Positions 1,013-7,216 of a stretch of DNA of 64,000 nt are shown piece after piece (within the stretch, counting starts at the first letter, position 1; each line of letters starts with the position of its first letter). The notes under the pieces were generated by a model. The model was not told the origin of the DNA, searched no databases, and saw nothing but the letters and a program-made list of their open reading frames with translations. Source of the stretch: Jiella endophytica (GTDB taxonomy: Bacteria > Pseudomonadota > Alphaproteobacteria > Rhizobiales > Rhizobiaceae); contig NZ_SOZD01000002.1 of the NCBI RefSeq assembly GCF_004519335.1, positions 496,001-560,000 on the forward strand, written 5' to 3'. The position numbers and the translations under genes were made by a program.

Positions 1013-1219
1013 TCAGGAGCAGACCTTGACGCGCTTCCAGCGATAGACCGGCTTGCCGTGATTGTCGTAGCCGACCACGACCTGCTGCCGTACCCAGTAA
1101 CAGTTGGTGGAGCTGGTGAAACTGTAGTTCGGCCAGAAATACTGGGCCTTGGCGCCGGAGGCCGAAGTGGTAGCGGCGACGGCGATGGTGGCAAAGGCGA
1201 TGGCGGTGTTGCGGATCAT
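1013..1219 (-). CDS. Small secreted protein, paralogue A
   Basis: This 68-residue protein of unknown function has a clear signal peptide (MIRNTAIAFATIAVAATTSA) with probable cleavage after AKA near residue 25, so it should be periplasmic or secreted. The mature part is about 43 residues. It shares with the protein at 1469-1705 the C-terminal pattern V-G-Y-x-[NH]-x-G-K-P-[VI]-Y-[RK]-[WF]-K-R-V-[KR]-[VI]-C plus one upstream cysteine, so the two Cys could form a disulfide. The ATG at 1219 has AAGGAC upstream. The gene is monocistronic, with a hairpin after it and a Crp-type box before it. I know no characterised family for it. Confidence 0.75.
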   Translation of the reverse strand: MIRNTAIAFATIAVAATTSASGAKAQYFWPNYSFTSSTNCYWVRQQVVVGYDNHGKPVYRWKRVKVCS

Positions 1220-1303
1220 GGTCGGGTCCTTGTCCAGGGTGCGGAAGTGGCTGGCATTTTCGGATCGGGGCGCCGGCGGCTCGTCTCGTCCGCCGATGAG
1301 TTG

Positions 1304-1346
1304 ACCCTAGGGATGGTCCCGGTCCGGCTCAGTGATCCGCGTCACA
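1304..1346 (-). promoter_or_regulatory. Crp-type palindrome and -10 element upstream of small gene A
   Basis: GTGA at 1332-1335 and TCAC at 1342-1345 flank six bases, the GTGA-N6-TCAC core of Crp sites. On the minus strand a TAGGGT hexamer follows at 1309-1304. A start point about seven bases past it (near 1297) would put the palindrome centre (1338.5) at -41.5, the class II activator position. The same arrangement occurs upstream of the paralogue at 1793-1835. Confidence 0.6.
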
Positions 1347-1408
1347 GGCACTCACCGAGGCAGTCCGAATGACGACGAGCGCCCTTCCCGGCCGACGCGC
1401 CATCACAC

Positions 1409-1440
1409 AAAAACCCCCGGGCCACGATCGGGCCCGGGGG
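1409..1440 (-). terminator. Rho-independent terminator of small secreted-protein gene B
   Basis: A perfect 10-bp stem (CCCCCGGGCC at 1414-1423 with GGCCCGGGGG at 1431-1440) and a 7-base loop are followed on the minus strand by TTTTT (1413-1409). It lies 28 bp past the stop codon at 1469, the same spacing as the hairpin after paralogue A. Confidence 0.85.
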
Positions 1441-1468
1441 CTGACGATTGTCATCTGCAGGGATCGGA

Positions 1469-1705
1469 TCAGAAGCAGATCCGGACGCGCTTGAACTTGT
1501 AGATCGGCTTGCCGAAGTGGCTGTAGCCGATGAAGACCTTGCGGGTCACGAACTTGCAGTGGCTGTAGCCGAAGCCGTTGTTGACGATGATGACGCGCTT
1601 GTTGAAGCCGTGGTTGTGCTTGAAGCCGTGGGCCTGGGCGGCACCGATGGAGCCGACGGCGACGACGGCGGTGGTGGTCAGTGCGATGAGAGCCTTGCGG
1701 ATCAT
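1469..1705 (-). CDS. Small secreted protein, paralogue B
   Basis: This 78-residue protein has a signal peptide (MIRKALIALTTTAVVAVGSI) and a probable AQA cleavage site near residue 25. The mature part is His/Lys/Phe-rich (HGFKHNHGF) and ends in the motif shared with the protein at 1013-1219: V-x-I-G-Y-S-H-F-G-K-P-I-Y-K-F-K-R-V-R-I-C. Two cysteines, one mid-protein and one penultimate, match the positions in the paralogue. The ATG at 1705 follows a good AAAGGAAC ribosome-binding site. The gene has its own terminator and a Crp-type box upstream. Function is unknown; the basic, aromatic mature sequence suggests an envelope or extracellular role, which is inference only. Confidence 0.8.
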   Translation of the reverse strand: MIRKALIALTTTAVVAVGSIGAAQAHGFKHNHGFNKRVIIVNNGFGYSHCKFVTRKVFIGYSHFGKPIYKFKRVRICF

Positions 1706-1792
1706 GGTATCGTTCCTTTCGAGTTCCAGGGCCTTTTCTCGAGCCCTGTGGGTCGGGGTTGACGACGGCCTTTTCTGCCCGCCGATGAGATG

Positions 1793-1835
1793 ACCCTACC
1801 GACGCCGCGGTCCGGCCTCAGTGACCTGCGTCACT
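1793..1835 (-). promoter_or_regulatory. Crp-type palindrome and -10 element upstream of small gene B
   Basis: AGTGA at 1820-1824 and TCACT at 1831-1835 form a perfect 5-bp inverted repeat around six bases. TAGGGT on the minus strand at 1798-1793 is placed as in the copy at 1304-1346, so the palindrome centre (1827.5) falls at -41.5 from a start near 1786. It also lies about 115 bp upstream of the divergent Crp/Fnr gene and could serve both directions. Confidence 0.65.
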
Positions 1836-1942
1836 CAAGTGTCGAGTGGCGAAAAGGAGGTGCGGCGCGGTTCGTCGTGACTCCGTATCGCCGAGGTACT
1901 ATGCTCGCCTGAGCAAAGGCGGATTTGCCGGAAAGGGACGTC

Positions 1943-2647
1943 ATGACGGTCGAGGTCAGGCCGACGGAGAAGGTGGCAGCGCTGGAGCGCTGCATGGTGT
2001 TCGAAGCCCTGAGCGCCGAGATGCGCGAGGAGCTTGCCGCCCACGCCTATCCGAAGAGCTTTGCCGCCGGGGATCTGATCTTCGCGGCCGGTGATCCCGG
2101 CCAGACGATGATGGCCGTCCTGAAGGGCACGGTGCGGATCGGCCTCGTCACCGCAACCGCCCGCGACGTGGTTCTGGGAGACTGCCACCAGGGCGATGTC
2201 TTCGGCGAGGTGGCGCTGTTCGACGGCGGGCCGCGCTCTGCCGATGCCCGGGCGCAGACCAATGTCGAGCTTCTTGTCCTCGAACGCCGCGACGTCTTTT
2301 CGGTGCTGCAGCGCCATCCGGACGGCGCGCTGCGGCTGCTGGAGCTTCTCTGTGGCCGTCTGCGCCGCTCCGACGAGCGGATGCAGGAACTCGCCTTCCT
2401 GGACATTTCGACGCGTCTTGCGCGGGCGATCCTGCGCATCCTCGAGAGCCCAGCCCATTCCGGCGCCAAGCGGCCGGTGCGTCTGGCATTTTCCCAGACC
2501 GAACTCGGCAACATGATCGGCAGCGCCCGCGAGAACGTCAATCGCTGCCTGAAGGGCTGGCAGCGGCGGGGCCTCGTCGACCTGAAGGACGGCTGGCTGA
2601 TCATCCGCGACGAAAAGGGCCTCGGCATCCTCGCGGACACCGAATAG
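1943..2647 (+). CDS. Crp/Fnr-family transcriptional regulator
   Basis: A 234-residue regulator. The N-terminal cyclic-nucleotide-type beta-barrel runs from about residue 10 to 120 (GDLIFAAGDPGQTM..., GDVFGEVALFDGGPRSA), then a dimerisation helix, then a Crp-type winged helix at about 150-225. The recognition helix reads SARENVNR, which keeps the R-E-x-V-x-R pattern by which Crp contacts GTGA half-sites. The N-terminal cysteine cluster of oxygen-sensing FNR is absent, so a 4Fe-4S sensor is unlikely; the ligand is unknown. The ATG at 1943 was preferred to a TTG at 1925 because GAAAGGGA lies just upstream. It is divergent from two small secreted-protein genes that carry matching GTGA-N6-TCAC boxes. 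Confidence 0.9.
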   Translation: MTVEVRPTEKVAALERCMVFEALSAEMREELAAHAYPKSFAAGDLIFAAGDPGQTMMAVLKGTVRIGLVTATARDVVLGDCHQGDVFGEVALFDGGPRSADARAQTNVELLVLERRDVFSVLQRHPDGALRLLELLCGRLRRSDERMQELAFLDISTRLARAILRILESPAHSGAKRPVRLAFSQTELGNMIGSARENVNRCLKGWQRRGLVDLKDGWLIIRDEKGLGILADTE

Positions 2648-2808: not shown

Positions 2809-3183
2809 TTGACGCAGACTGTTTTCAACGGCGGGACTTCGGCGGATCTCGTCGCGTTCCCGGCCGCCAATCCTCGCGACACCGTGGTTTCCTTCGATCG
2901 GCGCGAGCTCTCGGCAATACTGAGGGTCTACGGACAAATGGTCGCGAGCGGCGAGTGGCGCGATTATGCCATCGACATGCTGAAGGACCGCGCCGTCTTC
3001 TCGGTGTTCCGGCGCACCAGCGAGATGCCGCTCTACCGGATCGTCAAGGACCCCAAGCTCGCCCGGCGCCAGGGCGCCTACCAGGTGGTCGCCGCCGGCG
3101 GTCTAGTGATGAAGCGCGGTCACGATCTTGGTGCCGTCCTCAAGGTCTTCGACCGCAATCTGCGGCTCGCCGACAACGGCTGA
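2809..3183 (+). CDS. DUF2794 family protein
   Basis: A 124-residue protein matching the alphaproteobacterial DUF2794 family, whose core F-D-R-R-E-L-x-x-I-L-x-x-Y-G-x-M-V-A-x-G-E-W-R-D-Y-A-I-D is visible at about residues 28-56. There is no signal peptide or membrane segment, so it should be cytoplasmic. The start is a TTG at 2809 with ACAGGGGC upstream; no ATG lies near the conserved region. It stands alone between the Crp/Fnr gene and the YihY-like gene, both in the same orientation. No biochemical function is known to me. Confidence 0.85.
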   Translation: MTQTVFNGGTSADLVAFPAANPRDTVVSFDRRELSAILRVYGQMVASGEWRDYAIDMLKDRAVFSVFRRTSEMPLYRIVKDPKLARRQGAYQVVAAGGLVMKRGHDLGAVLKVFDRNLRLADNG

Positions 3184-3289: not shown

Positions 3290-4459
3290 ATGCCGACGAC
3301 AGCCAGCGACGCCCGCGCCGACGAACTCGGCGTCCGGGCAAAATCCCCGTCGCAGATCCCAGCGCCCGGCTGGAAGAACATCCTGATGCGGGTGTTTGCC
3401 GAGATCTCGAACGACCGGGTGCTGCTCGTCGCCGCCGGCGTGACCTATTACCTGCTGCTCGCCATGGTACCGGCGATGGCCTCGCTCGTCTCGATCTATG
3501 GTCTCGTCGCCGACCCGGCGACGGTCGGCCAGCACATCGGGGCGCTGTCGACGCTGTTGCCGGGCGGCGCGATGCAGATCGTCGACGATCAGCTGACGCG
3601 TCTTGCGGGCGCCGCCAACGGCACCCTCGGCCTGTCCCTGATCATCTCCCTCGCCATCTCGCTGTGGAGCGCCAATGCCGGGGTGAAGGCGCTGTTCGAG
3701 GCGATGAACGTCGCCTATGACGAGAAGGAGGAGCGCTCCTTCATCCGGCTGACGCTCGTCTCGCTCGTCTTCACCCTCTGCCTCCTCGCCGCGGCGCTGA
3801 CGCTGATCGCGCTGACGGTGGTGCTGCCCATCGTGCTCGGCTATGTCGGCCTCGGCCAGGGTACCGAATGGCTGATCACCGCCGGCTCGATCGCCGCGAC
3901 GCTGATCTTCGTCTCTCTCGTCATCTCGGCGCTCTACCGCTGGGGGCCGTGCCGCCGCCAGGCCAAGTGGCGCTGGATCACGCCGGGTTCGGTCCTCGCC
4001 GTCCTCGTCATCGCGATCGTCTCGCTCCTGTTCTCCTGGTACACGGCGAATTTCGGCTCCTACGACGCCACCTACGGCTCGCTCGGCGCGCTGATCGGCA
4101 TGATGACCTGGATGTGGCTGACGATGATCATCCTCATCGTCGGCGGCGAGCTGAACTCCGAGATGGAGCATCAGACCGCCCGCGACACGACGACCGGACG
4201 CGAGAAGCCGATGGGCACCCGCGGCGCCACCATGGCGGATCAGGTGGCCGATGCCACCGTCGCCGGCGGGCGGCTGTTCATGGAGACGGACCCGTCGCTG
4301 AAGCGCGAGATCGACGCGCTCTACAGCGGTGCCGGAGAGCGGCAGAAAGGCCGCGAGGAGCGCGACCAGTGGATCGCCGCGGCAGTACCCGCCGCGATCG
4401 CCCTGATCGCCGTCGCCGGCATGTCCAGCTTCGGCCGCAGCCGCCGGCCGGCCCGCTGA
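3290..4459 (+). CDS. YihY/BrkB (UPF0761) family inner-membrane protein
   Basis: A 389-residue multi-pass membrane protein of the family once misnamed ribonuclease BN. Hydrophobic segments lie at about residues 50-72, 115-135, 160-190, 195-215, 235-260 and 270-295, and another near the C-terminus (about 365-380). The hallmarks are TYYLLLAMVPAMASLVSIYG and the glycine-rich stretch YGSLGALIGMMTWMW before a conserved G-G-E-L-N. The tail from 300 is soluble and charged. The function of the family is not settled; a transport or envelope role is usually assumed. The ATG at 3290 was kept because no better start lies downstream. Repeat copy 1 begins two bases after the stop codon. Confidence 0.88.
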   Translation: MPTTASDARADELGVRAKSPSQIPAPGWKNILMRVFAEISNDRVLLVAAGVTYYLLLAMVPAMASLVSIYGLVADPATVGQHIGALSTLLPGGAMQIVDDQLTRLAGAANGTLGLSLIISLAISLWSANAGVKALFEAMNVAYDEKEERSFIRLTLVSLVFTLCLLAAALTLIALTVVLPIVLGYVGLGQGTEWLITAGSIAATLIFVSLVISALYRWGPCRRQAKWRWITPGSVLAVLVIAIVSLLFSWYTANFGSYDATYGSLGALIGMMTWMWLTMIILIVGGELNSEMEHQTARDTTTGREKPMGTRGATMADQVADATVAGGRLFMETDPSLKREIDALYSGAGERQKGREERDQWIAAAVPAAIALIAVAGMSSFGRSRRPAR

Positions 4460-5392: not shown

Positions 5393-7216
5393 GTGAGCAA
5401 GGCAAAGAAGAAGAAATTGTCCCTCGTCGCGCCCGAACGGCGCGGGCTCGTACTCGGGCTGATCGGCCGGATCCTGCGCGAGAACGGCCACCTCTTCGTG
5501 CGGCAATATGCGATCGCCATCGGCTGCCTGGTCGCTGCGGCGGGCTGTACCGCCTTCCTCGCTTGGATCATGCGCGACGTCATCGACAAGATCTTCGTCC
5601 AGCAGAACCGCGCCGCGATCTATTCCCTGCCGGCCATCGTCTTCGTCACCTTCGCCATACGAGGCCTCGCCAATTACGGCCAGGCGGTGGTGCTCGCCCG
5701 TATCGGCAACAACATCGTCGCGAGATACCAGCGCCGGCTGTTTGCCCACATCACCGAACTTTCGGTGGATTTCTTCGCCGAGAACCGCTCGGCCCATCTC
5801 GCCGCGCGGATCAACCAGAACGTCTCCGGCATCCGCGATACGCTGAACCTCACCATCACCTCGCTCGCCCGCGACGCGCTGAGCCTGATCTTCCTCGTCT
5901 TCGTGATGATCTGGCAGGATCCGGTGCTTTCCGGCATCGCCCTTCTCGCCGGCCCGCCGATCGCGCTGATGATCGGCAGCCTCGCCCGCAAGCTGAGGGT
6001 GGCAACCCGCCAGGCGATCGACATCAACGCGAGGGTGCTAGCCTCGATGCAGGAGGCGGCGCAGGGCATCACCGTGGTCAAGGCCTTCACCATGGAGGTG
6101 CCGCTGCGCGAGCGCATCGAGGGCCTGATCCTCAAGGCCGAGCAGCGCTCCAACAAGATCGCTGGCATCACCGAGCGGACCAGCCCGGTGACCGAGATGG
6201 TCGCCGGCTTCGCGATCGCTGGCGTCATCGGCTATTCCGGCTATCGGGCCGTCGTGTACGGCTATTCGCCGGGCTCGATGTTCGCCTTCATCACGGCGCT
6301 GCTGCTCGCCTACGATCCGGCGCGGCGCCTCGCCAAGCTGCAGGTCCAGCTCGAGCGCGCCCTCGTCAACGCCTCGATGATCTACGAGATCCTCGACCTC
6401 GAGCCGCGCCAGGCCGACGCTCCGGACGCCAGGACGCTGACGGTGGAGCGCGGCGAGATCGCCTTCAGGAACGTCACCTTCGGCTATTATGACGGCGAGC
6501 CGGTGCTGCGCGACCTTTCCTTCGTCGCCCCTGCCGGCAAGACGACGGCGCTGATCGGCGCCTCGGGCGGTGGCAAGTCGACGATCATCGCTCTCCTCCA
6601 GCGCTTCTACGACGTCGAGGAAGGCGCGATCACCGTCGATGGCGAGGATATCCGGACGGTCACCAAGCGTTCGCTGCGCTCGAAGATCGCCTATGTCCCG
6701 CAGGCGCCGTATCTCTTCGAGGGCACGATCCGCGAGAACATCCGCCTCGGCCGGCCGGACGCCACCGACGCCGAGATCGAGGAGGCCGCCCGCCAGGCCC
6801 AGGCCGAGGAGTTCATCCTAGCCGCGCCGCAGGGTTACGACACGCCCGTCGGCGAAAACGGCATGACGCTTTCGGGCGGCCAGCGCCAGCGCCTGTCGAT
6901 CGCGAGAGCGCTGGTGAGGAATGCCCCGATCCTGCTCCTCGACGAGGCGACCTCGGCCCTCGACACCCGCTCCGAGACGCTGGTTCAGGCGGCGCTCGAC
7001 GCGGCTATGAAGGACCGCACCGTGCTTGTCGTCGCGCACCGGCTGTCGACCATCACCAATGCCGACCAGATCCTCGTCGTCGACAGCGGCAAGATCGCCG
7101 AGCGGGGCACCCATCACGATCTCGTCGATCGTGAGGACGGGCTCTATGCCCGCTTCTACGGGCTGCAGGCCGGCGGCAATCGGCGGCCGGCGGATTTGGC
7201 GGCCGCGCGGCGGTGA
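5393..7216 (+). CDS. ABC exporter, fused permease and ATPase (MsbA-like)
   Basis: A 607-residue half-transporter. The six-helix exporter domain is about residues 35-320 and the nucleotide-binding domain about 345-585. Visible motifs are Walker A GASGGGKST (near 386), signature LSGGQRQR (near 492), Walker B ILLLDEATSALD (near 512) and the switch AHRLS (near 547), so the ATPase looks intact. It resembles lipid or drug exporters of the MsbA/ABCB class; the substrate cannot be read from sequence. The start is GTG at 5393, followed by a Lys-rich SKAKKKKLS stretch. Neighbours do not reveal a pathway, and about 225 bp separate it from the divergent GNAT gene. Confidence 0.88.
   Translation: MSKAKKKKLSLVAPERRGLVLGLIGRILRENGHLFVRQYAIAIGCLVAAAGCTAFLAWIMRDVIDKIFVQQNRAAIYSLPAIVFVTFAIRGLANYGQAVVLARIGNNIVARYQRRLFAHITELSVDFFAENRSAHLAARINQNVSGIRDTLNLTITSLARDALSLIFLVFVMIWQDPVLSGIALLAGPPIALMIGSLARKLRVATRQAIDINARVLASMQEAAQGITVVKAFTMEVPLRERIEGLILKAEQRSNKIAGITERTSPVTEMVAGFAIAGVIGYSGYRAVVYGYSPGSMFAFITALLLAYDPARRLAKLQVQLERALVNASMIYEILDLEPRQADAPDARTLTVERGEIAFRNVTFGYYDGEPVLRDLSFVAPAGKTTALIGASGGGKSTIIALLQRFYDVEEGAITVDGEDIRTVTKRSLRSKIAYVPQAPYLFEGTIRENIRLGRPDATDAEIEEAARQAQAEEFILAAPQGYDTPVGENGMTLSGGQRQRLSIARALVRNAPILLLDEATSALDTRSETLVQAALDAAMKDRTVLVVAHRLSTITNADQILVVDSGKIAERGTHHDLVDREDGLYARFYGLQAGGNRRPADLAAARR

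Follow-up and report, generated by a model that had tools for sequence, protein, structure and literature searches.

A predicted cAMP-CRP-type circuit for small, putatively secreted proteins in Jiella endophytica

In E. coli, class II promoters of the CRP protein carry GTGA-N6-TCAC boxes centred at -41.5, and GTGA is read by a recognition helix of the form R-E-x-V-x-R. A more extended arrangement is found in S. meliloti, where the clr-cyaD1-SMc02177-SMc02178 region encodes, according to PMC5498481, a CRP-family regulator, a cyclase, the FecR protein SMc02177 and SMc02178, a periplasmic target protein whose biochemical function has not been established. The same source reports that purified Clr binds the SMc02178 promoter with cyclic AMP (cAMP) and that Clr also governs polysaccharide and motility genes. 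CyaD1 is presented as a CHASE2 cyclase in a 2026 paper that employs the SMc02178 promoter as a cAMP reporter (PMC13001267), and the core of the Clr box is given as GTNNCNNNNGNNAC in PMC10127613. Here we describe a candidate related circuit in a stretch of 64,000 nucleotides of the J. endophytica genome (G000:C21:496001-560000; genome size 5.25 Mb), hereafter the window, in which two small genes, A and B, lie beside a gene for a Crp-type regulator (window Crp). Genomes, contigs and loci are identified by G, C and L numbers. The main features are the following:

1013-1219, minus strand: gene A, encoding a putative secreted A-type protein of 68 residues (mature part about 43 residues, two Cys)
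1469-1705, minus strand: gene B, encoding a putative secreted B-type protein of 78 residues (mature part about 53 residues, His/Gly-rich tail, two Cys)
1943-2647, plus strand: gene of the Crp-type regulator, 234 residues, with a cyclic-nucleotide-binding (cNMP) domain and a helix-turn-helix (HTH), divergent from B
about 2528-2545, plus strand: recognition helix R-E-N-V-N-R within the Crp-type gene
1332-1345, minus strand: putative Crp-type box of A, GTGACGCGGATCAC, predicted centre at -41.5
1821-1834, minus strand: putative Crp-type box of B, GTGACGCAGGTCAC, predicted centre at -41.5
1304-1309, minus strand: -10 element TAGGGT of A, assigned by pattern and spacing
1793-1798, minus strand: -10 element TAGGGT of B, assigned by pattern and spacing
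1297, minus strand: predicted transcription start of A, placed by spacing, 7 nt after the -10 hexamer
1786, minus strand: predicted transcription start of B, placed by spacing

A preliminary description of this DNA had reported tandem secreted proteins of 68 and 78 residues with a common C-terminal motif, and indeed both open reading frames (ORFs) are present and both C termini carry G-K-P-[VI]-Y-x-x-K-R-V-x-[VI]-C; signal peptides, of Sec type for A and B, were assigned by eye throughout. The ungapped alignment of the upstream blocks (1291-1345 and 1780-1834) returned the 41 identical positions out of 55 that had been counted previously, while 20,000 random pairs of 55-mers from the window showed a mean of 15.2, a standard deviation of 3.7 and a maximum of 31. 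Likewise, GTGA-N6-TCAC and TAGGGT were found at equal spacing in both promoters, with a spacer of 22 bp in each. The palindrome occurs four times in the 64-kb window against 0.62 expected from single-base shuffles, and the composite pattern GTGWN6WCAC-N16-26-TAGGGT was detected at two places only in the whole G000 genome, namely upstream of A and B. The same pattern gave 15 matches in 10 genomes of the genus and none in the reversed control, 13 of the matches lying upstream of small secreted proteins. The distance between the box and a -10-like hexamer (TAGGGT or TAGGTT) is exactly 22 bp in all 15 Jiella-group promoters compared, a set that does not include the second promoter of G006 at L014, whose hexamer is TAGGGC, and 23 bp at several Roseibium/Rhizobiaceae sites. 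These sequence comparisons establish a common promoter architecture; if TAGGGT occupies -12 to -7, the box is predicted to be centred at -41.5, i.e., in class II geometry, and the start usually falls on the A of CATCGGCGG.

A few further sites were recorded during these searches. L163 (G004:C38:49798-49839) has the box, the spacer and the TAGGGT hexamer but no TCATCGGC start and is followed by a gene for a 400-residue repetitive adhesin-like protein. In G035, a box followed after 22 bp by TATGGT lies downstream of the Crp gene at L184 (about 5830-5901, minus strand); it precedes no evident protein-coding gene and could be a relic or belong to a non-coding RNA. The FecR gene of G000 is preceded by a box-like site that has no -10 element and was not counted. 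The match at L082 was dropped, as it lies inside a coding sequence.

The divergent Crp-type protein with the R-E-N-V-N-R helix, also announced in the preliminary description, contains the domains of the Crp family (cNMP_binding, PF00027, 1.2e-22; HTH_Crp_2, PF13545, 4.4e-15). The phosphate-binding cassette G-E...R-S is present, with GEVALFDGGPRSADA aligned to GEMALLDGQPRSADA of Clr, and its G-E and R-S pairs are invariant in 9/9 aligned relatives of window Crp. Scanning G000 for the Crp-type HTH yielded 23 matches, six above the curated cut-off and three of full length, and R-E-x-V-x-R occurs in window Crp only among all 23 matched HTH stretches. Orthologs of window Crp were found in 11/61 relatives (E<=1e-60) and in 4/297 genomes drawn from the order, G000 counted (E<=1e-58), so that the system is patchy. 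Within the genus, G003 retains a C-terminal Crp fragment between complete flanks and has no box-bearing A/B-family gene, keeping two box-less paralogs; G002 has no Crp, no box-bearing gene and no box-less paralogs.

The association between promoter and regulator was examined across genomes. When relatives were checked for A/B-family genes beside Crp genes, as the preliminary description had proposed, a box-bearing member was found in nine genomes at a distance of no more than about 1 kb from the Crp gene. Among 80 public loci fetched by means of the Crp alignment, 24 have a Crp identity of at least 48%, and 11 of these 24 display a box, a 21-23 bp spacer and a -10 element beside the Crp gene; the rest of these loci gave nine occurrences in 320,216 strand-bases, corresponding to 0.025 expected per locus. 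In G005, G006 and G035, box-bearing genes are also found at a distance from the Crp gene. A covariance model of promoter plus 5' hairpin, R1, was then built on 20 of 24 promoters (L005, L007, L014 and L090 left out; neither the Leisingera sites nor L088, which is nearly a copy of L081, were ever part of the training) and used to scan the 61 genomes. At E<=1e-6, where E-values are rough, 33 matches were retrieved, 15 of which are training promoters. Ten of the 11 Crp genomes account for 32 of the strong matches and G003, which has the Crp fragment, for one; the 49 others have none.

Sixteen of the 18 non-training strong matches lie upstream of proteins with a signal peptide, three being known A/B-family members; L259 (G006:C12:364974-365050) has a well-conserved promoter and hairpin followed by an ORF that stops right after the signal peptide, and L263 (G003:C48:129311-129386) a conserved promoter and hairpin followed by a decayed-looking GTG-start ORF whose N terminus has no basic residues. 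The products behind R1 matches include two SH3_3-like proteins (one at the cut-off, one below), a family ending in CFxKPI...VGYxxICR, an NRRVEIV-tailed family and others without a Pfam match. G000 itself has a weak third site (E 0.006; C21:15,979-16,044) upstream of a 70-residue NRRVEIVI-tailed protein and a further one (E 0.007), probably due to chance, upstream of a 385-residue protein that lacks an evident signal peptide. In Roseibium and one Rhizobiaceae metagenome-assembled genome (MAG), all five tested genes behind the promoter, beside an orthologous Crp, encode BA14K proteins (PF07886). As the promoter also precedes non-homologous genes, its likeness appears to be kept by selection, and it seems to go with the regulator more than with any single gene family. 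The sequence data thus tie the promoter to Crp. The proposal that the neighbour activates A and B gains comparative support from the sole R-E-x-V-x-R among 23 HTH matches, the adjacency in other genera and the co-occurrence, and window Crp is the likely activator of both genes, presumably through direct binding.

The surroundings of orthologous Crp genes suggested a source of the ligand. FecR (PF04773) was recognised in 4/4 tested divergent genes from Roseibium, Rhizobium and Leisingera loci, and CHASE2 in 5/5 tested genes (Roseibium, Rhizobium, a Rhizobiaceae MAG, G035 and G059); the three of these five that are long enough also have a cyclase domain. Outside Jiella, the CHASE2 cyclase gene adjoins the Crp gene together with a FecR gene (G030, G035 and the tested Roseibium and Rhizobium loci), and the cyclase gene also adjoins it in G059. 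In G030 a single locus comprises the cyclase, FecR, Crp, the box and a small protein with Cys. Orthologs of the CHASE2 cyclase (E<=1e-90) were identified in 13/61 relatives, i.e., the 11 Crp genomes, G003 and G040, a co-occurrence that the genome comparison establishes and that would fit cAMP as the ligand of window Crp.

Most promoter copies run on into a conserved 5'-terminal mRNA hairpin, located in the window as follows:

1273-1296, minus strand: 5'-terminal hairpin of A, TCGGCGG/CCGCCGG with a 10-nt loop
1763-1785, minus strand: 5'-terminal hairpin of B, CGGCGG/CCGTCG

A stem of at least 5 bp can be formed by 20/20 stretches with a CATCGGCGG-type start against 33% of shuffles, this set comprising the promoters with a CATCGGC-type start and leaving out L005, L007, L014 and L093. 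L005, L007 and L014 form other stems, and the stem letters differ in L109, L090 and L009. In the 18-row helix alignment, obtained by removing L009 and L090 from the 20 stretches, 93.6% of the cells are paired, and no more than 58% pair after a shift of the partner by up to three columns. The alignment thus indicates a conserved hairpin, with weak support from covariation.

The A/B protein family was then characterized. A homology search with B found relatives in 13/61 genomes; the mature proteins span about 43-64 residues and are mostly cationic (net charge about +5 for A and +11 for B), with two invariant Cys and a third in many members. In a tree of 37 members, 17 box-bearing proteins cluster together with two box-less G020 members inside, and the other 18 form a second group, mostly of the YDECGNKLWVWKRVxSCH type. 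The A-type proteins of G000, G001, G005 and G007 group with a support of 89/93, the B-type fork being weaker (88/34). The earlier idea that promoter and gene were duplicated together is only partly sustained: such an event may have occurred but would be old, given the A-type grouping across genomes, and a recent joint duplication is not favoured by the tree. The AlphaFold model of B consists of a disordered tail and a beta-hairpin (strands 25-36 and 42-52) with Cys25 and Cys52 at its ends, the mean predicted local distance difference test score (pLDDT) being 92 for residues 31-40 and 88 for residues 41-50. Both A and B probably form beta-hairpins closed by a disulfide. A Foldseek comparison of the B model with PDB gave no meaningful match (44 weak ones, best E 2.8), and no Pfam or NCBIfam family, PF07886 included, scored above cut-off on A or B. 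The sub-cut-off Pfam matches of B to TMP_2 (0.015) and Cry1Ac_dom-VII (0.038) were taken as chance. Homology with BA14K was rejected because PF07886 is absent and the predicted folds differ, the weak hidden Markov model matches between the two being ascribed to the signal peptide and Gly-rich parts; as for gene presence only, BA14K genes occur in 10/10 genomes of the genus. The most likely site of action of A and B is the cell envelope or surface, and it is a guess that they bind surface polysaccharide or lipopolysaccharide.

Box-less paralogs were observed as two further tandem pairs in G000, at C21:443458-444418 (L032) and C22:158381-159339 (L031), with a different upstream motif, GCTCTGGNNNTTTCACT. 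This motif gave 11 matches in the 10 genus genomes and none in reversed controls, each 35-86 bp upstream of a box-less paralog, and it persists in G003, which has the Crp fragment only and no box-bearing A/B-family gene. Together with the 5' hairpin, the FecR/CHASE2 cyclase and the further targets, this second paralog group goes beyond the preliminary description. The remaining features around the locus are:

1412-1442, minus strand: terminator-like hairpin 3' of B, between B and A (one found against 0.7 expected in shuffles)
2809-3183, plus strand: DUF2794 gene downstream of the Crp gene, assigned by domain match
3290-4459, plus strand: YihY/BrkB-type membrane protein gene downstream of the Crp gene, assigned by domain match

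The terminator-like hairpin between the two genes suggests that A and B are probably transcribed separately, each from its own promoter.

Taken as a whole, the comparisons are best explained by a cAMP-CRP circuit controlling small secreted proteins, which we consider probable. A FecR-domain protein and the CHASE2 adenylate cyclase would sense a signal from the envelope or from outside, and cAMP would rise; the divergent Crp-type protein with cAMP would then occupy the GTGA-N6-TCAC boxes centred at -41.5 and activate the class II promoters of A, B and perhaps a few other genes. The transcripts would begin at or just before the conserved hairpin, whose probable role is to protect or regulate the mRNA, and the exported A and B proteins would each form a cationic beta-hairpin that is closed by a disulfide and preceded by a flexible tail.

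Several observations weigh against this circuit. Two of the 15 pattern matches in the genus genomes have no small secreted protein behind them, and in G001 the Crp gene is split over two frames, yet both promoters are intact. No adjacent promoter was detectable at 13 of the 24 loci with a Crp identity of at least 48%, and G059 has both Crp and the CHASE2 cyclase but no strong R1 match, so the link between Crp and promoter is not universal. Both Leisingera loci have the promoter without the TCATCGGC hairpin start, and at the one inspected a 469-residue ORF follows rather than an evident small secreted protein. Weaker R1 matches occur in genomes without a window-type Crp, and four of them were inspected: in G053 (6e-5) and G048 (2e-4) upstream of secreted proteins with a Cys...Cys C-terminal stretch and in G017 (2e-5) and G050 (1e-4) with nothing evident behind. 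The Fisher P values for co-occurrence, calculated with G003 left out, are very small but overstate independence, as eight of the 11 Crp genomes belong to one genus. In the hairpin, a single helix cell is changed on both sides, which 48/500 shuffles also reach, and the whole B model has a mean pLDDT of 68 and a predicted template modelling score of 0.35. Moreover, the C-helix pair expected to contact adenine is S-D in window Crp and T-T in Clr, and the best FecR-CHASE2 match of G000 lies at C11, about 749.8-752.3 kb, on a different contig from Crp.

These last two points, together with an identity of only 33% to Clr, would also suit a regulator that controls the promoters without cAMP, through another ligand or constitutively, the link to the cyclase being a matter of lineage history. 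We regard this as distinctly unlikely, as the GE..L...RS pocket is kept, a cyclase ortholog is present in 11/11 Crp genomes against 2/50 others, one of them being G003 with its Crp fragment, and the cyclase adjoins the Crp gene in G030, G035, G059 and the tested Roseibium and Rhizobium loci. That a different Crp/Fnr regulator or a repressor acts at the boxes, with the adjacency of Crp coincidental, is highly improbable: G000 does encode two more full-length Crp/Fnr HTH proteins, and weak promoter matches exist in genomes without window-type Crp, but the helices of the two proteins, T-I-E-T-V-S-R and T-V-V-T-V-N-R, do not have the GTGA-reading R-E-x-V-x-R form, and promoter and window-type Crp adjoin and co-occur across genera.

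Two alternatives concern the hairpin and the products. The strong primary-sequence conservation (TCATCGGCGGA) and the few compensatory changes of the GGCGG...CCGCC stretch after the start would be expected if it were a second DNA operator instead of an mRNA hairpin, an interpretation that we hold to be unlikely in view of the stems of at least 5 bp in every stretch of the set against a third of the shuffles, of the differing stem letters in L109, L090 and L009 and of the other stems in L005, L007 and L014. As small and probably exported proteins with net charges of about +5 and +11 and, for B, a predicted beta-hairpin, A and B might be cationic antimicrobial or toxin-like peptides; this appears improbable, since they match no family above cut-off, a neutral family member exists (L019), and the same promoter is predicted to drive BA14K- and SH3-type genes too. 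A tentative extension of the cAMP-CRP circuit, less probable than the circuit itself, is that promoter and 5' hairpin make up a portable expression cassette placed in front of whichever small secreted protein is in use in a given lineage, be it of the Cys-hairpin, BA14K, SH3, NRRVEIVI-tailed or an unnamed family. If so, sensing by CHASE2 would reprogram the envelope peptidome, and the hairpin would be a dedicated post-transcriptional control point. The findings raise the question of why the transcripts have a common terminal hairpin.

Compared with described systems, the locus resembles that of Clr in S. meliloti, in that orthologs of window Crp in G030 and Roseibium/Rhizobium loci stand in a similar layout of regulator, CHASE2 protein, FecR and target, SMc02178 being likened by description only; FecR and CHASE2 genes are neighbours of Crp in G035 too, and in G000 itself they lie on another contig. 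Window Crp is nevertheless 33% identical to Clr (67/202 aligned residues), too distant for a close relationship, and its recognition helix is R-E-N-V-N-R rather than R-P-K-V-N-R, so that the circuit is related but window Crp is not a Clr ortholog. The window box GTGA-N6-TCAC also differs from GTNNCNNNNGNNAC, the core given in PMC10127613, which the box of B fits as well and that of A does not, and the available portions of the S. meliloti sources do not mention a 5' hairpin at Clr targets. With E. coli CRP class II promoters the window shares GTGA-N6-TCAC, R-E-x-V-x-R and a box predicted at -41.5; in contrast, window Crp scores 95.7 bits against the NCBIfam NF008732 equivalog cut-off of 266 bits, and the targets found here are putative exported proteins. 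BA14K proteins are similar in being small, secreted and encoded behind the same promoter next to an orthologous Crp (Roseibium, Rhizobiaceae MAG), whereas A and B have no PF07886 domain and a predicted beta-hairpin in place of the helix-and-loop fold predicted for BA14K. A limited search of the open-access literature found no account of this circuit among the records listed. It would represent a related layout in bacteria outside the S. meliloti symbiosis, with an output limited to a few, countable proteins that are probably exported and share a recognisable promoter, by which the outputs of such cascades can be listed and tested genome by genome.

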